DNA from: Methanospirillaceae archaeon
GTDB lineage: Archaea; Halobacteriota; Methanomicrobia; Methanomicrobiales; Methanospirillaceae
Assembly: GCA_016926505.1 (NCBI GenBank)
Contig: JAFGOM010000048.1
Span: 1 to 64,000 of the forward strand
Direction of reading: 5' to 3'
Length of the DNA stretch: 64,000 nt
Positions 1,491 to 23,954 of the stretch are shown piece by piece; position 1 is the first letter of the stretch; each line of letters opens with the position of its first letter. The position numbers were made by a program, and so were the translations under genes. Under the pieces are notes generated by a model that saw only the letters and a list, made by a program, of their open reading frames with translations, was not told the DNA's origin and searched no databases.

Positions 1491-3725
1491 TTACGCTGCC
1501 CTGCACCGTGCATCCACGAAGCCTCCCAGTCCAAAGGAAGAGATACTGGTATCAAATCCTGCTGAAGCAATCCGCAGAGCATCATCGGTAAAGATACCAT
1601 TGGAGATGAGGCGGAGCGTGGTTACCGGGTTTACATCACTGCAGATCTGCAGCGGTTCTGCTCCTGAAGAACAGATGACAGCAGATGATGAACCGATTGA
1701 AGAAAGAGCAGATGCATCGCTCTCAAGCGTGACCGAGGCAGCCTCGTTGTCTTTATAGACCAGCATCTCATTGTATGACCACGGGGTATCATCACTGTGT
1801 GTCGTGAGGAGTTCATAGTTACCAGACAGGGCAGCTTCTCCGTTCTGCATCAGCTTGATAAGTGTCACCATCCAGGCAACCTGCTGACCAAGACCGGTAT
1901 CTGTATCAAGCGTTGTTGGATCAAAACCTTCCGAGAGCATGGACTCCATAACGACCAGGTAATTCTTCATGTAGTCTTCTTTGAGCTGCACCGCTTTTTG
2001 TTCAGGAGTATAATCTGCAGGGCAGGGCCAGCCTGCCACGACATCATAATCAGATGGGGCAGCGATGACATTTTGTATAAAATGTAAGACAGGGGGGGTA
2101 ACGCCCATAACACTAGCTGCAGCAACAACCTGGCTGTCTGCCGTCTGAACCATGGCTAATGCCTCCTCTACCTGTTTATGGACAGTCTGGGGATCAACGG
2201 CCTTTATCTCCCTGACAAAATTACCGAGCTTTTCGACCATTGCCTGGATATCGGGATCCAGGACATTTTCAAGATTTTCAAGGGCATCAAGATGACCGAC
2301 AAGATTACCGTTTTCATCAAATATCAGCCATACATCTTTATTGTTGGGATCAATCGCAGGAATGATGTAATAGGGAATATCTTTGACGGTGACCACCAGT
2401 CCGTCGTCAGGGTTGATTACGAAACCCATGTTCTGCAGCTGCAGGATGGTCGCTGCTATCCGCTCTGCAGGACTGAGATTTGAATCGGGCGGGGTAAAGG
2501 AGAACCGTTGCACCGAATTAAAGGCTGTCGGGGCAGTAGGGGCTATCGGGGGTGAGGGGATGACCGCAGGGGGAGTAGTGGTTGATGCACCGTGAATATT
2601 TACTGCTCCCCCGCCGGTAATGGTGCCATCGACATACACGCGGCCACCGGTACCTGCCGTACTCCCGCCTCCTCCACCTAAAGCTCCACCGGCAGCAGTG
2701 GCATCCACTGTCCCGCTGATGGTATCGGCAGAGACATAAATGGTTTCCGTGGGAGCATTGCCTCCATTCCCGCCAGTGCCTCCATTGCCGCCGGCACCAC
2801 CGCTGATATCAAGGGTCACCTCCGCATCCTTGGCGATATCGTCTGCCCACATGTAGATATGCCCACCATCTCCTCCATCAGCACCCTTGGCAGCCTCATA
2901 TGTGCCTGGTTTACCGGCATCACCGCCATCACCGCCGATGGCTTTAGCTGTGATTCTGGCATCTGATAACACGTCACCGGTAAACTGCATCCTGATGTCG
3001 CTGTACGTGGTCCGGGTACCCCCGGGACATAGTGTGCTGGAACCCCCATCACCACCATATTTATCATGACTAAACCAGCCACCGCCACCGGTACCTCCAT
3101 CACCACTGCTGACATCCACGGTCAGATCAATGGTATCTCCAATCGGTCCCGGGGTCTCAGCGGTATCAATGGTCCCGATATCTTTGGCAAAGACAAGGAC
3201 TGAACCCCCCTTACCACCGGCACCACCGACTCCGCCGTTACCTGTTTCTCCACCATCTCCGCCGTTTCCGCCGGTGGAGGTGAGCGTTGCATCGGCCTTC
3301 ATATCACCGGAAAGAATGATATTTGCGACCCCCGCATCTCCACCGGTACCTCCGGCTCCACCATCACTAACAGGCACAAAATCCCATACCTCATTCCCAT
3401 CATCATCCTTCCCTATATAAGAGAAGGCACCACCCTCACCACCGGTACCCCCGGCTCCGCCATTTGAGGTGATGGTAATCGATTCGGTCAGGTCATTCGC
3501 CCAGACCTGGCCCAGACCGCCAAGACCACCGGCTCCGCCAGAGCCTGCAGTTCCAGTCGCTGCAAACATGCCACCGCCACCACCAGAACCGCCTGATACA
3601 TCAATGGTCATCGATCCGTCAAGATTTCCCTCATTCACAAACTGGATCCAGCCTCCATCTCCACCACTGCCACCAGAGCCCGAGTTGCCTATGGTTTCAG
3701 GAGAGATCTTCTCGGGATATCCCAT
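1491..3725 (-). CDS. Giant glycine-rich (GGX-repeat) protein, C-terminal part after frameshift
   Basis: This is the continuation, in a different frame, of the GGX protein that starts at 6130. Its first 35 codons overlap the end of the upstream frame, and there is no signal peptide or convincing ribosome site at its first ATG. I therefore read it as the 3' part of one interrupted gene. Residues 1-360 continue the glycine-rich repeats (SGGSGGDGG, TGGAGGTGGDAG and similar). A Pro/Thr/Ala linker follows, then a roughly 350-residue non-repetitive C-terminal domain with no family I recognise. No C-terminal membrane anchor is visible. It could be expressed if the frameshift is a sequencing error or is bypassed; otherwise it is a pseudogene fragment. 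Confidence 0.65.
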   Translation of the reverse strand: MGYPEKISPETIGNSGSGGSGGDGGWIQFVNEGNLDGSMTIDVSGGSGGGGGMFAATGTAGSGGAGGLGGLGQVWANDLTESITITSNGGAGGTGGEGGAFSYIGKDDDGNEVWDFVPVSDGGAGGTGGDAGVANIILSGDMKADATLTSTGGNGGDGGETGNGGVGGAGGKGGSVLVFAKDIGTIDTAETPGPIGDTIDLTVDVSSGDGGTGGGGWFSHDKYGGDGGSSTLCPGGTRTTYSDIRMQFTGDVLSDARITAKAIGGDGGDAGKPGTYEAAKGADGGDGGHIYMWADDIAKDAEVTLDISGGAGGNGGTGGNGGNAPTETIYVSADTISGTVDATAAGGALGGGGGSTAGTGGRVYVDGTITGGGAVNIHGASTTTPPAVIPSPPIAPTAPTAFNSVQRFSFTPPDSNLSPAERIAATILQLQNMGFVINPDDGLVVTVKDIPYYIIPAIDPNNKDVWLIFDENGNLVGHLDALENLENVLDPDIQAMVEKLGNFVREIKAVDPQTVHKQVEEALAMVQTADSQVVAAASVMGVTPPVLHFIQNVIAAPSDYDVVAGWPCPADYTPEQKAVQLKEDYMKNYLVVMESMLSEGFDPTTLDTDTGLGQQVAWMVTLIKLMQNGEAALSGNYELLTTHSDDTPWSYNEMLVYKDNEAASVTLESDASALSSIGSSSAVICSSGAEPLQICSDVNPVTTLRLISNGIFTDDALRIASAGFDTSISSFGLGGFVDARCRAA

Positions 3726-4400
3726 TCTTCAGCCTGGTAGTCAAAAGCGTCACCGCCCGTCCCACCGGCTCCGCCGGTAGCTTTCCCGTTAAATGTACCG
3801 TCAGATGTCACTGTCGTCGGGCTGATGGCAATAATTGTACCGCCAAGACCCCCCTTTCCTCCGGAACCACTGGTGCCTGCAGTTGTTGTCGAGCCAGTGT
3901 TACGTTGTCCTGCCATACCGCCCGATCCTCCGGTTCCACCATTCGCCGTTGCATTGACGGTAGCGGCAATATCATCTATTACCAGGTCAATCTCGCCACC
4001 GGGGCCGCCAGCTCCACCGGAACCGCCGTTCCCGCTTTTACCACCATCTCCGCCGACACCCCCAGTTCCACCGATACCTCCTGCTCCGCCATCTGCTGTG
4101 AGTGCAGTTGTGCCACTGACCCCTTCAGCCGTCAGAACGATGTTGCCGCCTGCTCCGCCGTTGCCAGCTTCACCACCAATTAACATATCGTCCCCACCAT
4201 CTCCACCGGAGCCGCCATTGCCTCCCGAGACGTCGGCAGCCATTTCATTAGTGAGTTCCCCGTCGACTGAGATCGTTATTTCTCCTCCTTTCCCACCGCT
4301 ACCACCAGAACCGCCTGCTCCGCCACCAACTCCTCCTGACGCTCCGGCTCCACCTGCTCCACCGGTCGCGACGATCTCCGCTGCCCCATCTATTCCCTGT
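2640..4400 (-). repeat. GGX (poly-glycine) repeat region
   Basis: On the minus strand this stretch encodes dozens of blocks of the form GG-A/T/S-GG-x-GG, spaced by 15-30 residue beta-strand-like segments. On the plus strand it appears as repeated ccaccggtaccgcc-like triplets. Such GGX tracts can pack as polyglycine-II helices or lie at turns of parallel beta-helices; that structural reading is inference. The repetitive, slippage-prone DNA contains the frameshift near 3715-3725. Confidence 0.7.
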
Positions 4401-6130
4401 ACCTCCAGCTCGATGGTTCCACCATCTCCCCCAAAGGTACCGGCCAAGCCATCGTTGGAGGGCATTAACGTTGTTTCCGTTGAATACCCGTTCCCTCCTG
4501 ATGCAGCGAGGGTAACATCACCTTCGATAACCGTACCGGTTCCGGTTACGGAGATGGTCCCGCCTTTTCCGCCGGCAACGCCATCTTCTGTTGAATCAGC
4601 ACCGTTGGCGTCGATATCTATGGCTTTTCCCTCTGTGTTTGAAAATGTAGACCCCCTAAGGGTCAGGGTAAGATCACCCCCGTCTTTTCCATCCTTGATG
4701 GTTCCGGAAATCCCAGTTGTCCCGGTGAAGACGACGTCTTGTATGGTAACTTTCTGGTCGGTTGAAGGGGTTGTTGGACTTTTAATTGATATTGCTGCAC
4801 CATTCTCATCCGAACTCTCTACCGTATTACTATTATCTCCCAATATCAGGATATTGGTTGCATATATCCTGATAGCGGCACTGACAGATGTCGTGATCGA
4901 ACTCTGGAGAGAGAAGATGTCGCCCCAAGTCCTGTCAAACCAACCGTCATTCTCCCTGCCGATCTGGTAGAAGTCATTGTCAGGTTCTTCATCTGCATCA
5001 CCTCCATCCCCCCAATCCACCCATCCAAATCCCCAGTCATCGCTGTATGCCAGGTTGGTATTCGTGCCTGAAGGAGTTGAACTGGGATCAGCAGGATTCC
5101 AATCATTAAAATTAATAACCGGATCGCCCCAAAATTCTGTTTCACTGTCTTCCCCGCACAGGGATGACAGTTGATCGGACACCGTCTCCCCGGTTATTTC
5201 AGGGATCTCCCCGGTCATGGTGGTATCGGCAAGGACTGCTAGATGATCACCAGAAGGAGTTTCGGTACCATTCGAAGAGGAACCAACCTCATCAGGTACC
5301 GGTTCTTCTGATTCCTCTTCATCTTCTCCTTCTGGTCCGAACTCTTCCAGAGGAACCTCTTCTTGGTCATCCTGTGCCTCATCTTCGGTCTCATCCGACA
5401 AATCCAAAAAATCCTGTTCATCACCCACGGATTCGCCGGTACCACTTTCATCACCGGTCAGATCCCCATCATCCTGCATACCCGGGTTTTGAGACGATAA
5501 ATCTCCTCCTGACAATGTCAGCGGTTCTGTGGTTTCCTGACCATCGGCATCATCACTACCGGTACCGGATTGTGTTTCTACATTCGTGTCCCCAGATATA
5601 TCCGAATCAGGAGAGGATGATACTTCACCAGGGGATGGAGAGGAGGAAACACCGGTATCACCAATCAGATCCCCGTCATCCATTCCCGGGTTTTGAGACG
5701 ATAAATCTCCTCCCGACAATGTCAGCAGATCTGTGGTTTTCTGACTATCGCTATCATCACTACCGGTACCGGATAGTGTTTCTACATTCGTGTCCCCGGA
5801 TATATCCGTATCAGGAGAGGACGATACTTTACCGGGGGACGGAAAGGAGGAAACACCGGTATCTCCTGCAGAACCGGTGTCAGTGGATGATGCTTGTGTC
5901 TCAATAGCAGACAAGAAAGAGGAACTGTCACTGTCTCCGGCAGAATTTGTGCCGGCGAAAGAGGAAACAGATAAAACTCCTCCAGTATCGCCAGAAGAAG
6001 AACTGCTCTCAACCGGTGTTGCAGACACACTATCAGAGGCAGTATCATCAGCCGGGCAGGCTGTACCAACCATAAGCACAAGCAGAATGACAATAATGCC
6101 ATGTATAAAAATGAGCGAATAATTACCCAT
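3689..6130 (-). CDS. Giant glycine-rich (GGX-repeat) secreted protein, N-terminal part
   Basis: This encodes the N-terminal 813 residues of a very large secreted protein. It opens with a signal peptide (hydrophobic residues about 5-25, then ACPADD). An extremely acidic Ser/Asp/Glu/Gly-rich stalk follows to about residue 290, containing a 68-residue tandem duplication. Next comes a region resembling right-handed beta-helix/Pmp-type segments, then many GGAGGTGG-like tracts separated by beta-strand-like stretches. The polypeptide ends abruptly at 3689 after leaving the repeat pattern. The same repeat pattern resumes in another frame from 3725 downward, so a single-base indel near 3715-3725 probably splits one gene of about 4.6 kb. 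It is likely a cell-surface or sheath-associated protein; a molecular function cannot be read. The antisense strand carries long Pro-rich ORFs that are shadows. Confidence 0.75.
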   Translation of the reverse strand: MGNYSLIFIHGIIVILLVLMVGTACPADDTASDSVSATPVESSSSSGDTGGVLSVSSFAGTNSAGDSDSSSFLSAIETQASSTDTGSAGDTGVSSFPSPGKVSSSPDTDISGDTNVETLSGTGSDDSDSQKTTDLLTLSGGDLSSQNPGMDDGDLIGDTGVSSSPSPGEVSSSPDSDISGDTNVETQSGTGSDDADGQETTEPLTLSGGDLSSQNPGMQDDGDLTGDESGTGESVGDEQDFLDLSDETEDEAQDDQEEVPLEEFGPEGEDEEESEEPVPDEVGSSSNGTETPSGDHLAVLADTTMTGEIPEITGETVSDQLSSLCGEDSETEFWGDPVINFNDWNPADPSSTPSGTNTNLAYSDDWGFGWVDWGDGGDADEEPDNDFYQIGRENDGWFDRTWGDIFSLQSSITTSVSAAIRIYATNILILGDNSNTVESSDENGAAISIKSPTTPSTDQKVTIQDVVFTGTTGISGTIKDGKDGGDLTLTLRGSTFSNTEGKAIDIDANGADSTEDGVAGGKGGTISVTGTGTVIEGDVTLAASGGNGYSTETTLMPSNDGLAGTFGGDGGTIELEVQGIDGAAEIVATGGAGGAGASGGVGGGAGGSGGSGGKGGEITISVDGELTNEMAADVSGGNGGSGGDGGDDMLIGGEAGNGGAGGNIVLTAEGVSGTTALTADGGAGGIGGTGGVGGDGGKSGNGGSGGAGGPGGEIDLVIDDIAATVNATANGGTGGSGGMAGQRNTGSTTTAGTSGSGGKGGLGGTIIAISPTTVTSDGTFNGKATGGAGGTGGDAFDYQAEEWDIPRRSLLKP
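5466..5870 (-). repeat. Two-copy 204-bp tandem repeat in the acidic stalk
   Basis: Two consecutive units of about 204 bp (68 codons) share most positions. Each carries a DISGDTNVET block, a TLSGGDLSSQNPGM block and an SSSPSPGEV or SSFPSPGKV block. The period is a multiple of three, so the duplication preserves the frame of the signal-peptide-bearing half of the glycine-rich gene. Differences are mostly single bases, which indicates a fairly recent duplication. Confidence 0.75.
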
Positions 6131-7987: not shown

Positions 7988-8403
7988 TTAGATCAGGTCA
8001 TCAAGGATGAGGATCTCAATATCTTCAACCTTCGTAAACCCTCTATCATTTGTAATAAAGAGCTCCGCTCCATTAAGGATTCCAGTCACTAATTGAATGG
8101 CATCCTGCGTTCGTAATGAGTAGATGGCCCTCAAGCGTGCTGCTTCAATCGCAATTGCTCTATCAACCTCAGACAAGAAAAGGTGCGCTGAATCAGACAT
8201 GATTTCACTATATTTTTGGATTAATTCGGTATTATTTTCTTCCAGAGGCTTTGTGAGAACTTCAATAGGGTTATGGTTGAGGTGCAGGCATTGATATTGC
8301 CCCGGCTAATCTCTATAAATATCGGTTCAACAATCTGGATATACGCGGGGTTTTCTTCAATCAGATAGATAAAAGGAGCTGTATCCAGTGTGATTGTCGC
8401 CAT
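7988..8403 (-). pseudogene. Frameshifted PIN-domain toxin (VapC-like)
   Basis: This was a PIN-domain ribonuclease of about 138 residues. The first half (from the ATG at 8403: MATITLDTAPFIYLIEENP, with the first acidic residue D7) runs in one frame to a stop near 8221. The second half, containing RTQDAIQLVTG and FITNDRGF with the later conserved aspartates, is in another frame ending at 7988. The sequences join well if one base is restored near 8261-8268, where TTGAAG would be TTGGAAG. That gives a continuous LLEVLTKPLEENNTEL segment. The toxin is therefore broken, or the sequence has an error. Its antitoxin lies 23 bases upstream. Confidence 0.75.
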
Positions 8404-8960: not shown

Positions 8961-9047
8961 TTAATCACTCCTGCCATCCGGCATCAAAGCAGCCCGAACA
9001 CTCATCTCCTGTTCCTTCAGGAGAGTTTTGATACCTGTCCCTGCAGG

Positions 9048-9615
9048 TCAGTACGTATAATAGTACCCGACAATCCGTACCCACTGCCTGACCACCAAAC
9101 ATCATACTCCCGTCAGAAGCACGGGATACATGCACGATATTCGGCGTTTTTACATCCGGGCCCCGGGCAAGCTGCATCGGATTACCGTCCCAGAGACCGG
9201 TACATGACAGGTAGTACCCAAACGCGGCATTTGCCGAGCCGGTCGCAGGATATTCAAGGTAACCAAAGGCAGGACCAAAAACTCTGACATAATAGGCATG
9301 ATCCGGGTTTTCGGTCTCTGATGTTGCAATATGAATTACCTCGATTGAATGGGAGAGAACAAAATCACGCAAGATCTAATAGTCTGGAGAACACCCGGAA
9401 CAGGATGATAAGGAACGGATAGGGACGATAAGGATCTTCTGACCTACCTGTACGACACCAGTGGGCCTTTTTGTATCAATATCTGTTACCGGAATGCCGA
9501 GAGCCCATGCGATATCTGACACTTCCAGGGACGCTTCAATACATACCGGGTGTGGGGCATGAACATAAACCGTTCCTTCCCTAAAGAGCCGGTTTTTTAC
9601 CGATAGAACGTATCC
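9048..9615 (-). pseudogene. Broken PhzF-family isomerase gene
   Basis: The minus strand encodes most of the C-terminal two-thirds of a PhzF (phenazine biosynthesis-like) epimerase/isomerase. The best landmark is the family motif R-x-F-x-P-x-x-G-x-x-E-x-P-A-T-G-S-A, here VRVFGPAFGYLEYPATGSAN. There are three defects. The N-terminal catalytic part is absent above about 9615. An in-frame TAG occurs at about 9375-9378. A one-base shift near 9088 separates FGGQAV from a plausible native end reading VRIVGYYYTY. The segment beginning GTVYVHAPHPV precedes the nonsense codon in the same frame. It is a degraded gene with no function expected. Confidence 0.7.
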
Positions 9616-11845: not shown

Positions 11846-13556
11846 TGTGACATAACTTCCACATTTATAATGTGCACGATGCTCCAGCACTCCATCCTGG
11901 ATTACCAAACCTGACCCTTAAATGTTCATATTCATTATACATACCACAGGTAGGGCCCCAGATAAATCTATCTCTAGAATCAAACGGTGAACAAAATCCA
12001 TCATTCTTTTGGTTCTGCCACGAAGACGTCAAAAAATTAACTGATTCGAGATTCCGGACCTGCTCAATTGGCACACGGCTACAGATCACCCCAAGATTGT
12101 GTCCAATCGCATGAAGTATACGCTCTCCTTTCACCTTCTTTTTCCCTCGATGACGCAACGACATCCAGTGTTTATTTACTTTCAAATTCCCAAACAGTGC
12201 TTCTGAAACAGTTATCCGTTTGGCATATTCCTTCTTCCCCACGGGAGTTGCCAGCCTTGCTCTCATCTCGTCTTTCAGCTCTTCCTGAGGATGCCGTGTG
12301 ATTGCGCGGTGTGATGCTTTTGTACAACTCAAATGGATTGGACACCATGCGCAATTACCACGATACAGTCGTAAAGGTTGATTTTTAATATCTTTCTGAA
12401 TCCTGACAAAAGACATCCTCCTCCCGATAGGACAAGTGTACCTGTCATTTTCATGATCATACCGAAATCACGACTTCGGATAATATTTGGGTTTCCTATG
12501 AATCTCAATAAAATGCATGGAATCCGGAATTAGTCCATACAATTCTTTATCTTTCAGATCTGCATAGTTCTCAAAGGTGGCATATCCAGGATCAGCACTG
12601 ATAACTGTCGGTGCACGGGAAATATTCTTTACTACCTATTCAACCATCAGAATTAAGCGGATGATGATCGGTTTCTTCGGTCGTGGAGATCAACAGCAAC
12701 GATGATATTGGCCGTATCATCCACCGCTGTCTGTAAATTATATGCTGCAAGACAGGACTGTTTGCTTTTCATCAGATGTACACCCTCATAGATGAGATTG
12801 ATCCACTTTTCACCGGATGCAACAAGATGATTATATGCTGATGCAAGTTCCTCAATCTTCCTCATAAGATCAGGATCATTTACACATTCCTGGGGTATGG
12901 TGAAAGGAGAACCATTTCCGAATAGTTCGTCCTCTTCATTATCTGTACTTTCGCTTTATCAAGGAGTTTCTTGATCCTGCGCTGGAACTGCTCCTTGGTC
13001 ACAGATTTCTTTGAAGAAGCGTTTGCTTTTACTTTTGTGCCATCAAAGGCGATATGGTTCAGACCGATTGAACCGAGATCCTGGCAGATTGTGATGATCT
13101 GTTAAAAGAGCAGAATAAGATTATCAAAGAATCGGGTTCTAAAGCGGCTAATGGTTCGATAGGTTGGTTTCTGCATCGCGGCAAGATACAGGTAGGCAGT
13201 GTCAGTGTGAAGTTTGTTTTCTATCTCTCTGCTACTGAATACACCCTGAAAGGTGGCATAAAAGAGTACTTTAATTAGCATTTGAGGAGCATAAGCGTTC
13301 TGCCCAGTGGTTGTGTCATATGTTTGATAGATATCGGTGAGATCCATTTTGTCGACAACAACACTGATGATCCGGGCATTGTGGTCTGCCAGGATAAACT
13401 CTTCAAGAGAGAGAGGGAAGAGAAAGGTCTGTCCCTGATGGTATGGTTAAAATCCTCTTTCTGAACCATAATAACTTTCCCAGAACCTTTGATCGAAAAT
13501 TCCTGCATTTTATTAGTTTTTTATCTGATAAAGTACTTTTGCAGGGTTATGTCCCA
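11846..13556 (-). mobile_element. Degenerate IS1182-type insertion sequence
   Basis: A 1.7-kb element is bounded by matching inverted ends: TGTGACATAAC at 11846-11856 on the left and GTTATGTCCCA at 13546-13556 on the right (10 of 11 positions agree). Inside is a full-length but repeatedly frameshifted IS1182-type transposase on the minus strand. The size fits the family. I do not see an obvious target duplication in the flanks, which may have decayed. The element cannot move by itself. Confidence 0.7.
11865..13508 (-). pseudogene. IS1182-family transposase, multiply frameshifted
   Basis: The order of transposase parts is preserved. The N-terminal DUF772-like domain lies near 13100-13350 (MDLTDIYQTYD, APQMLIKVLFYA, SSREIENKLHTD, TISRFRTRF). 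A segment with FDGTKVKANASSKK follows at about 12990-13060. The middle part (ISADPGYATFENYADLKDK, then a YTCPIGRRMSFVRIQ zinc-ribbon-like stretch) lies at about 12400-12640. The C-terminal part is at 11865-12416 (CAWCPIHLSCT, KRITVSEALFGNLK, ILHAIGHNLG). At least four frame changes or stops interrupt it. The conserved order and motifs make the family call firm; activity is excluded. Confidence 0.85.
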
Positions 13557-14028
13557 ACCTGATACGATCTCCTTTCGTATGAATTCAATTCTTCTGTAGT
13601 ACATATCCAATACAAGTCGCTTGATCTGCATACGATCATCAGATAAGAGACATAAGAAAAAGATTCAGACTGCCTGAAAATTGAAGAGATGTACATATCG
13701 GTTTCATATCCGATTCTGAAAAGACCAGGATGCCCTATCTCATCGGTCCACATACGGTCTTCTCTATTCAACAAAACAGAGCACCAGGAGATGAATTCTC
13801 TTCCGCCTGACCAGAGTCTCATAAACCCTGCCCCGGACAGACCCTTTTTACTCCCTTTTAATCCTGCTCCGCTGCATCTATCTGATTATCACAGGTATGA
13901 GGGAATCCTGACCGTTTTTTGGATCTACCCCTAACAAAGAGATCGGTTCCTATCTGTACGTCATCATACGAATCTCCTGAACCCTAAAAACAGACCCTTA
14001 CTCCTGTAAAAATGAAAAAGAGCGATTA
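13557..14028. other. Region without a confident gene
   Basis: Two overlapping ORFs on opposite strands (91 and 81 codons) cover this interval and neither shows a clear family. The minus-strand one contains SGGREFISWCSVLLNREDR, faintly like the end of a PAS domain, and may be a scrap of a sensor gene. I see no RNA gene. Confidence 0.3.
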
Positions 14029-15972: not shown

Positions 15973-16145
15973 AGGTGAAAGGTTCCTCACCGAGGTATTT
16001 AAAAAAACTGGTTTGTTCACCGAAAAAATCCGGATTTTATTATGATGTGATCTGATTTTTTCTTTTTGCTCATAATAGTATCGAACACCGTTACTTTTTT
16101 ATAGCCTGATACCTATTGGAAATACATTGCGGGGGATCCGGATCC

Positions 16146-18230
16146 ATGAAACCGGTAATCAGTTCTTTCATTGTGGCGCTACTCATTCTCGCAGGAATCC
16201 TGCTTCTTGTGTACGGAGGGGCATCTGACGATGATTCAAAGTACGAAATTTGCCTGGAAAAAGCAGAGCAAAAAACCCCGGGTTCTTCTTCTCTGACGAG
16301 TTTACATCTCCCAGACCTTCCTCAACTCCAGACCGGGCCTGCTGCCCGGGTTGTCGGAAGGTACATCGTCTCAAAGACCGATCCTTACAAGGGAGAAGCC
16401 CCCCTGAAAGTACATATCTGGGATGAATCCCTCGCAAACAAGGAGGTAGAACCGGTTGGATGGAAATGGGATTTAGGAGACGGTGAAGTCTCAGAAGAAC
16501 GGGATCTGTACCATACCTATGAAGAACCGGGTGAATACACCATCATCCCGAGTGTTCTCTGGTCTGACGGACAACTACAGGAAGGAAAAAAGATCGTCAT
16601 TCCGGTATATGAACCAAAAGTATCATCAACTGCGTCCCTGACTGCCGGCCCCTCCAAAACTGAAAAAACCTCCCTTGTTCCGGTCTCTGATGAGTCACAC
16701 CAGGTTGCCATAAATGTATTTCCGTCAGAGGGATTCGCCCCGCTTGAGGTTGATTTTTCAGATGATTCAGAACGGGTAACCAGTCTGGCTGTAACCAACC
16801 GGTTATGGGAATTCGGAGACGGGACTACGTCATCTGATGCTTCAGGAATCCACCGGTATGTCCTCCCCGGTGATTATACCATCACCCTGACTGTTGCTTT
16901 TGAGGATTTCGTGGTGCGAACCGGCACAACTTCACTATCTGTCAGGGCAAAGGAACAGGTGCAGCAAAGTGTTCTACCCACTCCCCGGAAACCAGTTGCA
17001 ACACCAGCAATGCCAAAACCAACACCATCATCCGGGCAACAAACACCAGTAATACCTGAACTGACACCACCAACTCCCCAACAAACAACTTCTGAACATC
17101 AGGAACCGGAGAAAGAACCGTCATCAGGATTCTGTTCTGCACGACCCCGGCAGGGTCCGGTGCCATTGGAAGTCCTCTTTGAGATCGCACCTCCCCAACG
17201 TGAAGCAATTCCGGTCAGATTTGACGGGAAGATAGACGGTGTTTCTGTATCAGATGATGATCGCTTTACCCGTATCTTTACTACACCAGGCAGGTATCTC
17301 TGGACCGGTACGGTATCCTACTCAGATGGTACAATAGAGACTGATACCGGGACTATCCTTGCAGAAGAACCATTGGATGTTGAAAACTATATCGGCTGGC
17401 TGGTGCCTGATTCCAACAGAGGAGTATTTCCCCTCACTGTGGAGTTTACCGATCTCTCATACCAGACCAGTGATAAAGAGCCGGAAACGACCACTATTGA
17501 TTTTGATGATGGAGATTCCCCGGCATCAGGAGAGCGTAAAATATCCCATACCTATGATTATCCTGGAATCTATTATCCAAGACACACGGTCATCTTTGAT
17601 GACGGGGTGGCACTCGAAGGGTATCTGTACGTCCTTGTGGATAGCACGCCCTTGTATTATCCACAGATATATGCAGATACGCTCTCTGGTCCTGCTCCTT
17701 TAAAGGTCACCTTTGAAGATATCTCGTATGCGACCGGGGGACCATTCGTGACTGACCAACACTGGGAATTCGATGATGGAACAATTGAGTATAAAAAGAA
17801 GATTACTCACACCTTCTCTGAACCGGGGGTTTACGAAGTCTTCCTGTTTGTTACCTACTCAGATGACCATGAGGAGTATACCTCTGTCCCGGTTACGGTC
17901 TTTGAGAGAGAGCCCGAAGAGATCTATACCATCCATTATTGCATGGAACTGGCCGGTCCGACCGTCGGCCATGCCCCCCTGACCGTGTACCTGCAGGATC
18001 GATCCTACACCAATAATGCATCGGTGGTGTCGGTCACATCAACATGGGATGCAGGAGATGGGACGCCAACGCATACCGGTGATCTCGTGAGACATGAATA
18101 TACCAAAGACGGGATCTATGACATTACCCACACGGTCACGTTCTCTGATGGGTATGAAACAAATGGAGAGATCATCAGGATTTATGTCCTGAAGAGTGGT
18201 GCCCGGGAAGAGTCATTTGTCAGCAGGTGA
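16146..18230 (+). CDS. Secreted multi-PKD-domain surface protein
   Basis: A 694-residue exported protein with an N-terminal signal or membrane anchor (about residues 4-26) and about six PKD-like immunoglobulin-fold domains. Recognisable PKD cores are WDLGDG, WEFGDG, IDFDDG, WEFDDG and WDAGDG, each followed by an H-x-Y/F...PGxY motif. One unit at about 17120-17360 is degenerate. A Pro/Thr/Gln-rich linker at about 16960-17100 separates the second and third units. I prefer the ATG at 16146, next to GGGGGATCCGG, over the one ten codons earlier. PKD proteins are common on methanogen surfaces and mediate cell-cell or sheath contacts; the exact role is unknown. It converges with the CARDB gene, leaving 9 bases between their ends. 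Confidence 0.82.
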   Translation: MKPVISSFIVALLILAGILLLVYGGASDDDSKYEICLEKAEQKTPGSSSLTSLHLPDLPQLQTGPAARVVGRYIVSKTDPYKGEAPLKVHIWDESLANKEVEPVGWKWDLGDGEVSEERDLYHTYEEPGEYTIIPSVLWSDGQLQEGKKIVIPVYEPKVSSTASLTAGPSKTEKTSLVPVSDESHQVAINVFPSEGFAPLEVDFSDDSERVTSLAVTNRLWEFGDGTTSSDASGIHRYVLPGDYTITLTVAFEDFVVRTGTTSLSVRAKEQVQQSVLPTPRKPVATPAMPKPTPSSGQQTPVIPELTPPTPQQTTSEHQEPEKEPSSGFCSARPRQGPVPLEVLFEIAPPQREAIPVRFDGKIDGVSVSDDDRFTRIFTTPGRYLWTGTVSYSDGTIETDTGTILAEEPLDVENYIGWLVPDSNRGVFPLTVEFTDLSYQTSDKEPETTTIDFDDGDSPASGERKISHTYDYPGIYYPRHTVIFDDGVALEGYLYVLVDSTPLYYPQIYADTLSGPAPLKVTFEDISYATGGPFVTDQHWEFDDGTIEYKKKITHTFSEPGVYEVFLFVTYSDDHEEYTSVPVTVFEREPEEIYTIHYCMELAGPTVGHAPLTVYLQDRSYTNNASVVSVTSTWDAGDGTPTHTGDLVRHEYTKDGIYDITHTVTFSDGYETNGEIIRIYVLKSGAREESFVSR

Positions 18231-18239
18231 AAAACAGGT

Positions 18240-21200
18240 TTACCAGAGGAACTCCCTCTCCCACATTGCGATATTTTTCAGGTTCCGGTTCACATTAGAG
18301 AGAAGGACCTCCTCATCGTCCCCCAGGTAGGCTGACCGCTGGCGCAGAAGTGCCCTTTCCAGTTCACTAAAGGATCTCGCAAGCAGGTAATATTTCTCGA
18401 TATCTGAACGAGTGGGATTTTCCATCGTACCGATAATATGCAATTGTTCTGCCAGGTATGCCTGGTTGTACTCGGTTGTTCCCATGGACTGGTAGCAGGC
18501 ATCGGATTTTGAGAGACCCGTTTTCATGGACTCACTGGCCTTTTCGTATCCATACATTGGCAGATCAAGAGCCAATGAAGAACCTCCGGTCATATAAGCA
18601 TTCATACCCATGCTGATCCCTTTCATGAGCTCACTCTCTGATTTTGTTTCAGGCTGGGATCCAAGTATTGTTGCCATGGAACCGGCATAATTTGCAAGAT
18701 TTTTACCGACAGCGTCCATAACCTCTTGATTGTCGGCAAAGTCAGCAAACGATGAGATGGAAACGATATCATCGTAGTTGGAATAGAGGTTTGAGAGATC
18801 CTTTACTGTCATAACAAGGCCTACACCCTCTACTACCAGATCCCCTTTCTTAAGAAGTGACTGGTAGGTATCAGCATATCCCCGGTATGTCAGGTGTTCT
18901 CTGGCGGCATTGAATTTATACCTGGCAACATCTTCCCATGAGGTTGCATAAAAATACGCATATGACTCAACATTTCCATAGTATGCATCATTGTAGCGTT
19001 TTTCATTCTCCAAGGAGAGCCCTGAATACAAAATTCCGCTGGAGACAGGATTATCAAGATTAAATCTGCTTGTATCAAATGGTTCCTCAATCTCCTCCTC
19101 GGCTTCGGGTTCGGTTTCAGGTTCCTCAGGAGCTGAAATAGTAATCAGATCCGATACCACCCTGTTGTTATCCTCCCGCCCTTCACAGATTAATCCTTTT
19201 TCTGAACCATTATCAACCTCAACGATGAGATACCATGTGCCGGGAACCGTATCGGCAGGAATAGGAATACTGACCTTTTCATGAATATTTTTTGTTGATA
19301 TTCTTGAATGAAACAGAGTAAAGATTGGATCTGCTGATGAAGTAATCAGATCTGGTGCCTCAGAGAGGAATAACTTCACAGGGAATCCTTCCTCAACGAA
19401 AGATTCTCCGTTATTGTAAAGATCAAATTCAGCCTGTAATTCCTCTCCAGCCACAACAGTATAGGGAACAGTAACATGAGCAACCTGCAAATCAGGGAGT
19501 GGTGATTTTACTGCTGTAAGGTAAACTTTTTTCTGTATTCCCGCTTCAAATGTCTCTTTCTGTTCTACCGATAGGGATTTCTCTTCACATGAACGATCAG
19601 TCCATTCCATTCTGAATGTATGCAATCCCGGGCTTACCGTAATCTCAGGATTAACCTGAGGACTGAGCAGGTACTCGGCCTCTAAAACATTATCTACAAA
19701 GAGTCTCACCTGCAGTGAGGGGTAATCACGGGTTTTTAAAATAACAACTGCAGTGGCCGGTTTGGAGATAGAGATGGTGTCTTTACTCAATCCGGGATCA
19801 CCAATAGTTCCCGTATCACCTCTGGCATAGTCATGGACTGATGCAATAATGCCGCCATAATACTCTCCCGGTCCAATATCGGGAGGGAGGGTGAGATCAA
19901 TACTCATCCTTTGCCATTCACCTGCTTTTATCGGATCGACTCTCTTTTCATTCCCGATAAGTCGATCAGTATCGGTAATGGTTGTATCATTCGAGAGGCA
20001 TGCCTGAACAGTAAAGGGCAAAGTATCAGCATCCCCGTCATTTTCCAGGATAAAAGAGATGGTAACCGTATCTCCGGGTTTGGCATTCGGGGGGATGAAT
20101 AGTGAGTGGATAACAAGATGAGCCTCCTGCTCATCTGCTTCCGGTTCTCCTTCCGGCTCTTCAATTAACTGGACTTCAGGAGTGGGAGCAGGTGTTTGTT
20201 CGACTACAACTTCAATAACCGGGTGTATACAAAGCCGGGTTGTTGCATAACCGGTGTTGTTGTCCTCTGAGCTCTCCCCTATCTGTTTATAGGAATCGAC
20301 AATCACACCAGAATAATAATCCCCTTCCGGAGTAACTGAAGGGATAAGCAGGGTTTTTGAGTCAGATAGCGTCGCTTGTGCCGCCAAAGCATCATACCCG
20401 TAACTGCCCAGAGGAAAATCAGAATCAGTGATGATGGTATCCTGCGAGAGGTAAAACCCAACTTTAAAGGAGCCGGTACCTTGTGTACCGGTATTCTTTG
20501 CCGAGAATGATACCACGATATCAGAACCGGGGGCTGCGGTTCCTGGTGCGGTTACCGATAGTATCGTGAGATCCGGTTGTTTTCTTGTTTCAACAACATT
20601 ACTTTTTGTCACGGTCAGTGTATCAGAGGCGTAACCGGTGTTGTTGTCCTCTGAACTCTCCCCTACCTGTTTATAGGAATCGGCAATCACACCCAGGTAA
20701 TACTTTTCTTCCGGAGTAATTGAAGGGATAAGCAGGGTTTTTGAGTCGGTCAGCGCAGCCTCTGCCGCCAAAGCATCATACCCGTAACTGCCCAGCGGGA
20801 AATCAGAATCAGTGATGATGGTGTCCTGCGAGAGGTAAAACCCAACCTTAAAGGAGCCGGTCCCTTGTGTACCGGTATTCTTTGCCGAGAACGACACCTC
20901 AATATCAGTGCCCGGGGCTGCGGTTTTGGGTGCAGTTACTGATAGTACCATAAGATCAGGCTGAATTACCCCGATACGTTCTGATATCACTCCATGTTCT
21001 TCCTGCGGAACAGGGGTTGGCAGTATCTCTTCTTCATGGGGGATACTGATCTGAACAGAAAAAGCAGCATATCCTGCATTATTATCCTCTTCAGACTCGG
21101 TATACTCACGATACGTATCAGCAAGGACAAACACGTAATAATCACCAGCCGAAATTGTATCCAGGATATATACATTTCGTGAATCGGTAAATGTCTCCTT

Positions 21201-23954
21201 TGTCTTGAGAGGCTGATTGGTAAAGGTATGCAGTACGCTATCAGAATCATCAGGGACTGCATCCTCTGAAAGTGTGATATCAATCCTGAACGGACCGGAA
21301 TTCTTCTCTCCACGGTTAGCCAGAGTAAAGGTCACCGGCATTTCTGTCCCTGAAGAGATGGTTTTTGGAACATCCACCGATACTACCACAAGATCTGGTT
21401 GTATTTCCGCTACTTTTTCTGATATCACCCCTGTTGACTGCCCGGGAGTTGGTTGTACCATCTCTTTCCCCGCTTCTTTTCTGAGGGTTACCGGATCTGC
21501 GGTATATCCCGCATTATTATCCTCATTGTTCTCATCGTTCTGGTTTTTTGTGTCAGCAATCACTCCAAGGTAATACTCTCCTTCAGACTGAAACGATGGG
21601 ATAAAAAGGGTTTTTGAATCCTTCAGGGTATCTCCCGCTGCCAGCGGGTCATAACTGACTGTCTTTACAACAACATCTGATCCATCAGCTATCCTGTCCA
21701 TTGAGAGGGTAAATCCCAGTTTGAAGGGGCCTGAATTTCCTTCTCCCGCATTTGTAATGGTATATGAAACCTGCAAATCCGTGCCGGGTGATGCTGTCTT
21801 TGGGGCATTCACCGAGATAACAGCAATATCCGGCACAATATCTGCAGGATGCAGTTCTATCCCGGGAAGCAATACCACGGTTCCGGCGGTTGTCGGGGCG
21901 GGCGGTGGTACTGATCTTGGGAGGGGAGTCAATGTCTCTTCTGTGATAGTTCGTATCTCTACCGGTTCATTTGAAAACCCTGCATTATTATCATCGCGTA
22001 ATTCATCAAACCGGTCCTGTGAATCGATTACAATACCAATGTAATATTCTCCCTCTGATTGAAACGATGGGATAAGAAGGGTTCTTGTTTCACTCCAGGT
22101 ATCTCCGGCGGCAAGCGGATCATAACTGACTGTCTTGAGAATAACATCAGAAGTATCAAAAGCCCTGTCCTTTGAGAGGGTAAATGCAATTTTAAAAGGT
22201 CCGGAGATTGCAGTGCCTGCATTTCTGACTGATATAAAAACAGGCATCTCATTCCCCGGTTCTGCCGATTCCGGTGCATCCACCAATACAACCGAAAGAT
22301 CAGGTGCTCCTTCCGGGGTTTGCAGATCCTGCACAACAGGCTCTGTTTTTTGTACTGGCACCGTTGTTGTGGGAGTCGGTTGCGGCTGCATTGTTCCTGC
22401 AACGGTAACTTCATGAAAACAGGCATTATTTGTCTCATCTCCCTCTTCCAACGCATTTTTCGGGTCTGCCATCACCACAAGATAATACCTGCCCGGGGGA
22501 GTACTTTCAGGAATGCGGATAAACCTGAGATAATACATGGATGAACCGGACCCAAGCGAATCGTAAGGATTGCTTCCAAGGATACTATCAGAGAGATCAA
22601 TGCTGGTGTCAGATGAGAGATAAAAAGCAGTATCATACCTGCCGGAAGACACGCTTCCGGGATTGGTAACAGAAAATCCTACCTGAACAAGCTCCCCTGC
22701 TGTGACACTATCACTGATATCAAGTAAAGGAACTGCCAGATCCGGCAGGGCCTGTATTGGTGGTAATACCGTGATCTCTTCCGGGAGAGGTGTTTCCTCC
22801 GGGAGTGTGGGAACCGGAGTCAGGGTGGGGCCCGGTGCGGGGGCAGGTGAAACCGGAGCCGGTACCATCTCTTTAAGTGTTATCTGAGCATTTCCGGCAT
22901 TATTTGTTTCATCACCCTCGTCTATTGTATTTTGAGGGTCTGCCATCACCACAAGATAATACCTGCCGGGAGGATTGTCTTTGGGAATGGGCACAAACCT
23001 CAGGCGATAGAGTGAAGAGCCCGAACCCATTGAGTCATAGGTGGAACTGGCAAGGGAGATATCAGAGAGATCGACGATCATGTCCTGTGAAAGGTAAAAA
23101 CTAATTTTATATGAACCAGAAGCGATGCTCCCGGAATTTTGTATGACAAATCCCACCTGGACCAGTTCGCCGGGTTTTGACATCTCAGGAATATCAACCG
23201 ATGAAATGCTGAGATCGGCCTGTGATGTTCTGGTCAGGGCTGGAGCAGTGGATTCTTCCGGTACAGGTGTGACGGCAGAAGGGGGCGGGGTTATCGGTGA
23301 TGCGCCATTGGTGTCTGTCTGCGTTACAGCAATGGTTTCTTTCCCTGCAGGAGTCTCTGGTGGAGATGCCGGAACCGGGGACGGGGTAGGAGCAGGTGTG
23401 ACGGTGGATGGCAGGATATGGTCAAGGGTAATGGGGACAGATGCCACATTATTGGTATCATTTGTCTCATCGATCTCATCGAAGGGATCAGCGCGTATTC
23501 CAAAATAATACGTTCCGGGTGCGGTATCATCAGGGATGCGGATAAACCTGAAATAATAAAGGGATGACTCCGGTTCAAGTGAATCATAGGAGTAGGTTCC
23601 TAATAAAAGATCTGAACTCTCAGTGGGAGAGTCTGTTGAGAGATAAAATCCGATCGTATATCTCCCGGTAGCAATAATACCTGCATTTTCTCCGATAAAT
23701 CCGACCGGGATCAGTTCCCCGGGTTCTGCATCACTTGTGATATTTAAAGATGAGATGAAAAGATCCGGGAGCAGGGTTTGTTCCGGTAACGGTTGTTGTA
23801 ACGATCCCGTAATATCCGGGAACCGGGCAGTCTGCACCTCTGTCAGACCAGGGGCGTCAAATACATTCCGTTCTGAAAAAACATCCTGCGATGATGCACC
23901 TGCAGCAAGAACCAGTAAAACTACCGGGATCACCACCATCGTACGAATCGTCAT
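18240..23954 (-). CDS. Giant CARDB-repeat secreted protein (1904 aa)
   Basis: After a signal peptide (residues about 1-22) this protein carries ten CARDB (cell adhesion related domain in bacteria) units. Each begins with a D-L-x-V-x-x-V-x-x-P...PG motif followed by V-x-F-x-x-x-N-x-G. They also share an (E/D)-x-x-E-x-x-N-N-x-(G/A) turn and a GxYYxGxxxD strand. Pro/Thr-rich linkers separate the first five units. After unit nine there is a PEGA-like insert (SLQVRLFVDN, then ISV..PGLHTFRMEW). The last 300 residues, after an acidic Glu-rich linker, form a helical non-repetitive domain I do not recognise. Units 7 and 8 are nearly identical in DNA. The protein is probably a surface adhesin or structural protein. 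The gene reads toward the PKD gene, and both may contribute to the cell envelope. Confidence 0.85.
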   Translation of the reverse strand: MTIRTMVVIPVVLLVLAAGASSQDVFSERNVFDAPGLTEVQTARFPDITGSLQQPLPEQTLLPDLFISSLNITSDAEPGELIPVGFIGENAGIIATGRYTIGFYLSTDSPTESSDLLLGTYSYDSLEPESSLYYFRFIRIPDDTAPGTYYFGIRADPFDEIDETNDTNNVASVPITLDHILPSTVTPAPTPSPVPASPPETPAGKETIAVTQTDTNGASPITPPPSAVTPVPEESTAPALTRTSQADLSISSVDIPEMSKPGELVQVGFVIQNSGSIASGSYKISFYLSQDMIVDLSDISLASSTYDSMGSGSSLYRLRFVPIPKDNPPGRYYLVVMADPQNTIDEGDETNNAGNAQITLKEMVPAPVSPAPAPGPTLTPVPTLPEETPLPEEITVLPPIQALPDLAVPLLDISDSVTAGELVQVGFSVTNPGSVSSGRYDTAFYLSSDTSIDLSDSILGSNPYDSLGSGSSMYYLRFIRIPESTPPGRYYLVVMADPKNALEEGDETNNACFHEVTVAGTMQPQPTPTTTVPVQKTEPVVQDLQTPEGAPDLSVVLVDAPESAEPGNEMPVFISVRNAGTAISGPFKIAFTLSKDRAFDTSDVILKTVSYDPLAAGDTWSETRTLLIPSFQSEGEYYIGIVIDSQDRFDELRDDNNAGFSNEPVEIRTITEETLTPLPRSVPPPAPTTAGTVVLLPGIELHPADIVPDIAVISVNAPKTASPGTDLQVSYTITNAGEGNSGPFKLGFTLSMDRIADGSDVVVKTVSYDPLAAGDTLKDSKTLFIPSFQSEGEYYLGVIADTKNQNDENNEDNNAGYTADPVTLRKEAGKEMVQPTPGQSTGVISEKVAEIQPDLVVVSVDVPKTISSGTEMPVTFTLANRGEKNSGPFRIDITLSEDAVPDDSDSVLHTFTNQPLKTKETFTDSRNVYILDTISAGDYYVFVLADTYREYTESEEDNNAGYAAFSVQISIPHEEEILPTPVPQEEHGVISERIGVIQPDLMVLSVTAPKTAAPGTDIEVSFSAKNTGTQGTGSFKVGFYLSQDTIITDSDFPLGSYGYDALAAEAALTDSKTLLIPSITPEEKYYLGVIADSYKQVGESSEDNNTGYASDTLTVTKSNVVETRKQPDLTILSVTAPGTAAPGSDIVVSFSAKNTGTQGTGSFKVGFYLSQDTIITDSDFPLGSYGYDALAAQATLSDSKTLLIPSVTPEGDYYSGVIVDSYKQIGESSEDNNTGYATTRLCIHPVIEVVVEQTPAPTPEVQLIEEPEGEPEADEQEAHLVIHSLFIPPNAKPGDTVTISFILENDGDADTLPFTVQACLSNDTTITDTDRLIGNEKRVDPIKAGEWQRMSIDLTLPPDIGPGEYYGGIIASVHDYARGDTGTIGDPGLSKDTISISKPATAVVILKTRDYPSLQVRLFVDNVLEAEYLLSPQVNPEITVSPGLHTFRMEWTDRSCEEKSLSVEQKETFEAGIQKKVYLTAVKSPLPDLQVAHVTVPYTVVAGEELQAEFDLYNNGESFVEEGFPVKLFLSEAPDLITSSADPIFTLFHSRISTKNIHEKVSIPIPADTVPGTWYLIVEVDNGSEKGLICEGREDNNRVVSDLITISAPEEPETEPEAEEEIEEPFDTSRFNLDNPVSSGILYSGLSLENEKRYNDAYYGNVESYAYFYATSWEDVARYKFNAAREHLTYRGYADTYQSLLKKGDLVVEGVGLVMTVKDLSNLYSNYDDIVSISSFADFADNQEVMDAVGKNLANYAGSMATILGSQPETKSESELMKGISMGMNAYMTGGSSLALDLPMYGYEKASESMKTGLSKSDACYQSMGTTEYNQAYLAEQLHIIGTMENPTRSDIEKYYLLARSFSELERALLRQRSAYLGDDEEVLLSNVNRNLKNIAMWEREFLW
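20215..20945 (-). repeat. Near-identical 384-bp direct repeat of CARDB units
   Basis: Two successive CARDB units share long exactly matching stretches with a period of 384 bp (128 codons). For example, a block around 20281 recurs at 20665. Differences are few, so duplication or gene conversion was recent compared with the other eight diverged units. Confidence 0.75.

Follow-up and report, generated by a model that had tools for sequence, protein, structure and literature searches.

A frameshifted gene for a glycine-rich, probably secreted protein and its intact paralogue in a Methanospirillaceae archaeon

The window analysed here covers 64 kb from the start of an 83.8-kb contig, part of the draft genome (2.94 Mb in 121 contigs) of a Methanospirillaceae archaeon, a methanogen of the Methanomicrobiales. 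Near its beginning lie two long ORFs, termed A and B, which are read from the same strand in frames that differ by −1, overlap by 37 nt and both have start codons in the ORF listing (Table 1). They adjoin, at 273–1237 of the forward strand, an MntA-like nucleotidyltransferase and HepT-like HEPN RNase pair (type VII toxin-antitoxin), which was recognized in overlapping frames through Pfam and NCBIfam.

ORF A opens with a hydrophobic N-terminus (residues 6–24) followed by a Ser/Asp/Glu-rich region, which bears out the signal peptide and acidic stalk proposed in a preliminary description of this DNA. A conserved CPAD motif, common in the alignment to the window protein and to a paralogue described below, follows the signal peptide, and ORF A as a whole carries 139 acidic (D+E) versus 20 basic (K+R) residues; the hydrophobic N-terminus and this acidic composition would be compatible with export and an extracellular location. 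Beyond a beta-rich N-terminal domain, the two ORFs contain about 20 repeat units, each made of a two-strand beta-arch and a run of Gly-Gly-X (GGX) triplets. The unit consists of a 17–18-residue segment with alternating hydrophobic positions, which we interpret as a pair of short strands joined by a turn, and of 2–5 succeeding GGX triplets, and it recurs in all three proteins of the family (the window protein, its paralogue and a relative from a Methanospirillum MAG). There are 25 runs of at least two triplets (12 in A and 13 in B), and strict GGXGGXGG runs number 15 (7 and 8, respectively) versus a mean of less than 0.06 per half in 500 composition-preserving shuffles; glycine reaches 42% within one 100-residue block. 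The C-terminal domain is predicted by a low-confidence AlphaFold model to comprise helices and a small sheet. It has no match in Pfam and none above the cut-off in NCBIfam, in keeping with its earlier characterization as unique, and the protein as a whole shows no known domain and no canonical cell-wall or membrane anchor.

Table 1. Coordinates of the two ORFs, their protein regions, the frameshift interval and a decayed family member elsewhere in the genome
Feature	Position	Strand	Size, basis or remarks
ORF A, coding for the N-terminal half	3689–6130	−	813 aa
ORF B, coding for the C-terminal half	1491–3725	−	744 aa
Shine-Dalgarno-like GGAAGGA, 4 nt ahead of the ORF A start codon	6135–6141	−	sequence
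Signal peptide, residues about 1–24	6059–6130	−	Kyte-Doolittle peak 2.74, residues 6–24; paralogue alignment; cleavage site inferred
Acidic Ser/Thr/Asp/Glu-rich stalk with internal repeat of ~70 aa	5231–6049	−	composition, sequence
N-terminal beta-rich domain	4520–5242	−	elsewhere only in the paralogue (51% identity)
Beta-arch and GGX repeats, ORF A part	3761–4573	−	run counts, unit comparison
Beta-arch and GGX repeats within ORF B, with a predicted strand-pair repeat	2586–3677	−	run counts, AlphaFold
C-terminal domain	1494–2522	−	343 aa; conserved in the paralogue (41%) and the Methanospirillum MAG (25–26%)
Interval bound to contain the frameshift	3689–3731	−	frame B TGA (3731–3729) to frame A TAG (3691–3689)
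Third family copy, remnant on contig C63	L007:2260–2830	+	part of the C-terminal domain; frameshift, stop, several lesions

Searches of the same genome with each half separately led to the same second place, on contig C99 (L006:10172–15559), where one ORF of 1795 aa encodes the whole protein in order and in a single frame. ORF A aligns with residues 1–901 of this paralogue (34% identity, E 2e-113) and ORF B with residues 1059–1787 (44% identity), and the succession of signal peptide, stalk, N-terminal domain, repeats and C-terminal domain is common to both, the C99 copy differing in being intact and longer. The presence of this intact, colinear paralogue shows that A and B were once a single ORF. 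In the assembly, the frame of the window gene is disrupted by a −1 shift relative to its intact, single-frame homologue, as would be expected of a pseudogene. This upholds the original proposal that a frameshift split what had been one giant secreted protein. The arrangement that was to speak against it, with orthologues occurring as two separate genes of which the second has a signal peptide of its own, is not what we find, since the paralogue is a single ORF that matches both halves. G+C content by codon position is similar in A (59/56/43), B (61/51/48) and the paralogue (63/52/42), and moves with the frame.

The 43-nt interval that must contain the shift is a unique linker between GGX blocks: none of its 10-mers recurs in the gene or the paralogue, its longest homopolymer is 3, and it holds neither an X XXY YYZ slippery heptamer nor a slippage-prone repeat. 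The break had been placed within repeat-rich DNA near 3715–3725, which does not agree with this uniqueness, and repeat-driven slippage was likewise rejected given the unique k-mers at the site. Decayed genes are clustered at ~8–14 kb of the window. These include a PIN-domain (VapC-like) gene split between two frames (about 8050–8400, reverse strand), whose C-terminal half matches positions 60–118 of PF01850, a PhzF fragment (8965–9372, reverse strand) and decayed DDE transposase fragments (11865–14000, reverse strand), a pattern that fits local gene decay. The ORFs at 24–64 kb look full length, which argues against an indel-rich assembly.

These observations bear on how the two ORFs arose. That they represent two independent genes, one for a secreted acidic glycine-rich protein and another for a separate glycine-rich protein, might be suggested by the presence of two ORFs with a start codon each; however, ORF B begins within the linker and, upon inspection of the sequence, lacks both a signal peptide and a Shine-Dalgarno-like site, and the paralogue, being one ORF, already contradicts such an arrangement, to which we accord the least credence of all. 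Scarcely more credible is programmed −1 frameshifting or phase variation that would yield the full-length fusion at some frequency: the −1 frame difference and the short overlap are of the expected kind, but the shift interval is unique, with homopolymers of at most 3 and no slippery heptamer, which makes programmed shifting unlikely, and no shift interrupts the paralogue, which is read throughout in a single frame. We accordingly rejected a programmed shift for this site. A sequencing or assembly error, under which the window gene would be intact and functional alongside its C99 paralogue, is a real though lesser possibility. Both halves are fully open with coding-type composition, the assembly is a draft of 121 contigs, and the gene, which is on the whole repetitive, is located 1.5 kb from a contig end. 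Against this stand the uniqueness and short homopolymers of the shift interval itself, the full-length-looking ORFs along ~40 kb of the same contig, and the decay of nearby genes, some of them with several lesions. The uninterrupted 744 codons of ORF B are expected under a very recent lesion and a one-base assembly error alike. Since the neighboring genes are also decayed while the 24–64 kb region appears intact, we judge it perhaps about twice as likely, short of proof, that the gene was genuinely and recently inactivated as that the assembly is in error.

We therefore consider it on balance likely that the locus is a single gene encoding a secreted surface or matrix protein of ~1,550 residues, disrupted by one frameshift in the linker between glycine-rich blocks, and that it is a probable recent pseudogene, with the function being carried by the C99 copy. 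In the assembly as given, ordinary translation would make only the secreted N-terminal half (813 aa, devoid of the C-terminal domain), which is the basis for regarding this copy as probably a recent pseudogene. The frameshift itself is ordinary and of minor interest; what deserves attention is a fold that may be hybrid, together with a C-terminal domain that has no name.

The repeat region of ORF B was modeled with AlphaFold from an alignment of three rows (ORF B repeats, ORF A repeats and the MAG protein, with the C99 paralogue left out), and the model (pLDDT 67.8, pTM 0.75) features nine strand pairs, with the GGX runs outside strand and helix. An earlier run on all of ORF B with two rows gave a model of poor quality (pLDDT 43) that yielded nothing informative in a PDB search. 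Foldseek searches of the PDB with the repeat model recovered no match at or below E 0.001. The best of the sub-threshold matches is the beta-helical Ca2+-dependent antifreeze protein 3p4g (E 0.0034, TM-score 0.22), the springtail PPII-bundle antifreeze protein 7jjv (E 0.0097) and the snow flea protein 3bog are also among them, and adhesins and tapirins appear further down; a search of a viral structure library gave nothing significant. By the measure of GGX triplets in runs of two or more, the protein qualifies as a candidate for a polyglycine-II (PGII)/PPII bundle, with all of its 25 runs, and a polyglycine-II conformation for these runs is plausible on the model. The preliminary description, which had invoked polyglycine-II bundles, was thus right about the runs; the sub-threshold matches point to beta-helices and PPII bundles alike. 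As for a beta-solenoid or beta-helix, no significant match to a known family or structure was found (none in Pfam; best Foldseek E 0.0034). The mixed nature of the structural matches suggests that the modeled region could be a beta-solenoid edged by polyglycine-II.

Two readings of this fold deserve weighing. A conventional right-handed beta-helix adhesin, in which the GGX runs would be flexible loops without polyglycine-II, is a serious candidate that falls somewhat short of probable, and it is independent of the frameshift question. The strand pairs recur regularly in the model, and among the PDB matches, all of them sub-threshold, a beta-helical Ca2+-dependent antifreeze protein ranks first and adhesins and tapirins follow lower in the list; however, flexible loops would not need a GGX triplet periodicity that is far above chance, and the matches also include the antifreeze bundles of springtail and snow flea. 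More tentatively, and with considerable doubt, we posit that the protein represents a family of archaeal surface proteins, as yet undescribed, whose fold would be a hybrid in which each turn of a beta-solenoid bears a polyglycine-II segment, thereby generating a beta-sheet face and a PGII face, with the novel C-terminal domain at the end.

Among known glycine-rich systems, the PE_PGRS proteins of mycobacteria, to which the protein had initially been likened, have two defining domains, PE and PGRS, the latter modeled as PGII sandwiches (PMC10216338). They resemble the window protein, itself a putative surface protein, in displaying repeated GGX triplets on a surface protein and in their modular repeats, and the GGX segments of the two may behave alike. 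Yet they belong to a different organism and have different terminal domains: neither half of the window protein contains a PE domain (none in Pfam, and none in NCBIfam above the cut-off), its N-terminus being instead the signal peptide and acidic stalk. Moreover, while PGRS is an essentially continuous array of GGX triplets, here runs of 2–5 triplets alternate with regular beta-arches of 17–18 residues. Hence, membership in the PE_PGRS family was rejected, and the likeness fails in architecture as well. RTX calcium-binding repeats were similarly dismissed; tandem GGxGxDxUx nonapeptides are absent, with 3 isolated strict matches in A and 0 in B, and there is no Pfam HemolysinCabind hit. PPII bundles are known from antifreeze proteins and from gp38 of phage S16 (PMC13243192). 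The springtail and snow flea antifreeze proteins (7jjv, 3bog) have GGX triplets in common with the window protein and are weak structural matches to it, and GGX triplets are also shared by the glycine-rich gp38 adhesins of the S16 type; however, no sequence homology was found to either, beta-arches are interleaved in the window protein, and the latter is more than 10 times the length of the antifreeze proteins. Beta-helical adhesins and 3p4g share with it short strand pairs, here predicted, in a repetitive and, here putatively, extracellular protein, but no sequence family, and the TM-scores are low.

Glycine-rich tail-fibre adhesins that determine host range are known from haloarchaeal tailed viruses (PMC8651126) and parallel the window protein in glycine richness, adhesin-like character and archaeal setting. 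These are viral proteins, whereas no viral context is seen for the window gene, and viral and phage collections contained no relatives of it. The glycine content had been called unusual for an archaeal envelope protein, but because such archaeal-virus adhesins have been described (PMC8651126), it is not by itself without precedent among archaeal systems. The protein is best filed among glycine-rich repetitive surface proteins, as a member of an unnamed and narrowly distributed family.

This narrow distribution emerged from several searches. A profile of the C-terminal domain run against 232 genomes of the order and class recovered only the copies from the same genome and one protein from Methanospirillum MAG OWC_0037 (JAJRBL010000143.1), and against 394 genomes sampled across the phylum only the own-genome copies. 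A scan of 84,980 species genomes, which filters first on conserved peptide patterns and may thus miss distant relatives, again recovered the same MAG alone. This MAG is placed in the same family as the window genome, and its protein, truncated by the contig start, has a homologous C-terminal domain preceded by GGX/beta-arch repeats in the same order, with fewer GGX runs. The N-terminal domain was found nowhere but in the C99 paralogue. The repeat profile also retrieves only the window, C99 and MAG proteins, which indicates that the repeats carry a family-specific signal beyond glycine content. No conserved gene neighborhood was seen around the three places. No relatives were detected in IMG/VR viral contigs, phages or plasmids, and a viral or plasmid origin was accordingly rejected; a single PHROG entry of unknown function matched the repeats weakly (E 0.0037), probably through composition. 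PDB sequences yielded no convincing relatives of the C-terminal domain or the repeats. A DNA pattern for five GGX units, present in 108 of 231 genomes of the order, proved uninformative as a family marker, the places listed being mostly G homopolymers, glycine tracts and RGG-type repeats.

Within the genome, the remnant on contig C63 is closest to the C99 copy (83% and 63% amino acid identity over two pieces) and indicates that copies of this family do decay here. The next gene downstream of it encodes a secreted protein of clostripain-like appearance, as judged by eye. Near the C99 paralogue, a Tyr/Pro/Ser-rich secreted protein (L006:7487–8587, forward strand) is a possible second surface protein.

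Judging from its anatomy alone, the protein is probably a lineage-specific secreted stalk or adhesin with a stiff rod, intact on C99 and broken in the window. We envisage that it would be exported by the Sec route and retained at the envelope, where its acidic Ser/Asp/Glu stalk would support a long, repetitive rod of two-strand beta-arches stacked as a solenoid, with the GGX runs forming a flanking polyglycine-II-like layer. The C-terminal domain would potentially be displayed for adhesion or co-aggregation. If the fold is as modeled, it would place polyglycine-II segments in a cellular archaeal envelope protein, joined to a beta-solenoid, a combination not found among the solved structures searched. 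The family has no name in any library searched, and the coexistence of an intact, a broken and a decayed copy within the same genome offers a small natural example of surface-protein gene turnover. The window encodes another giant surface protein, a secreted protein of 1904 aa with eight CARDB stretches (18240–23954, reverse strand), which is adjoined by a gene for a protein with five PKD stretches (16116–18230, forward strand).
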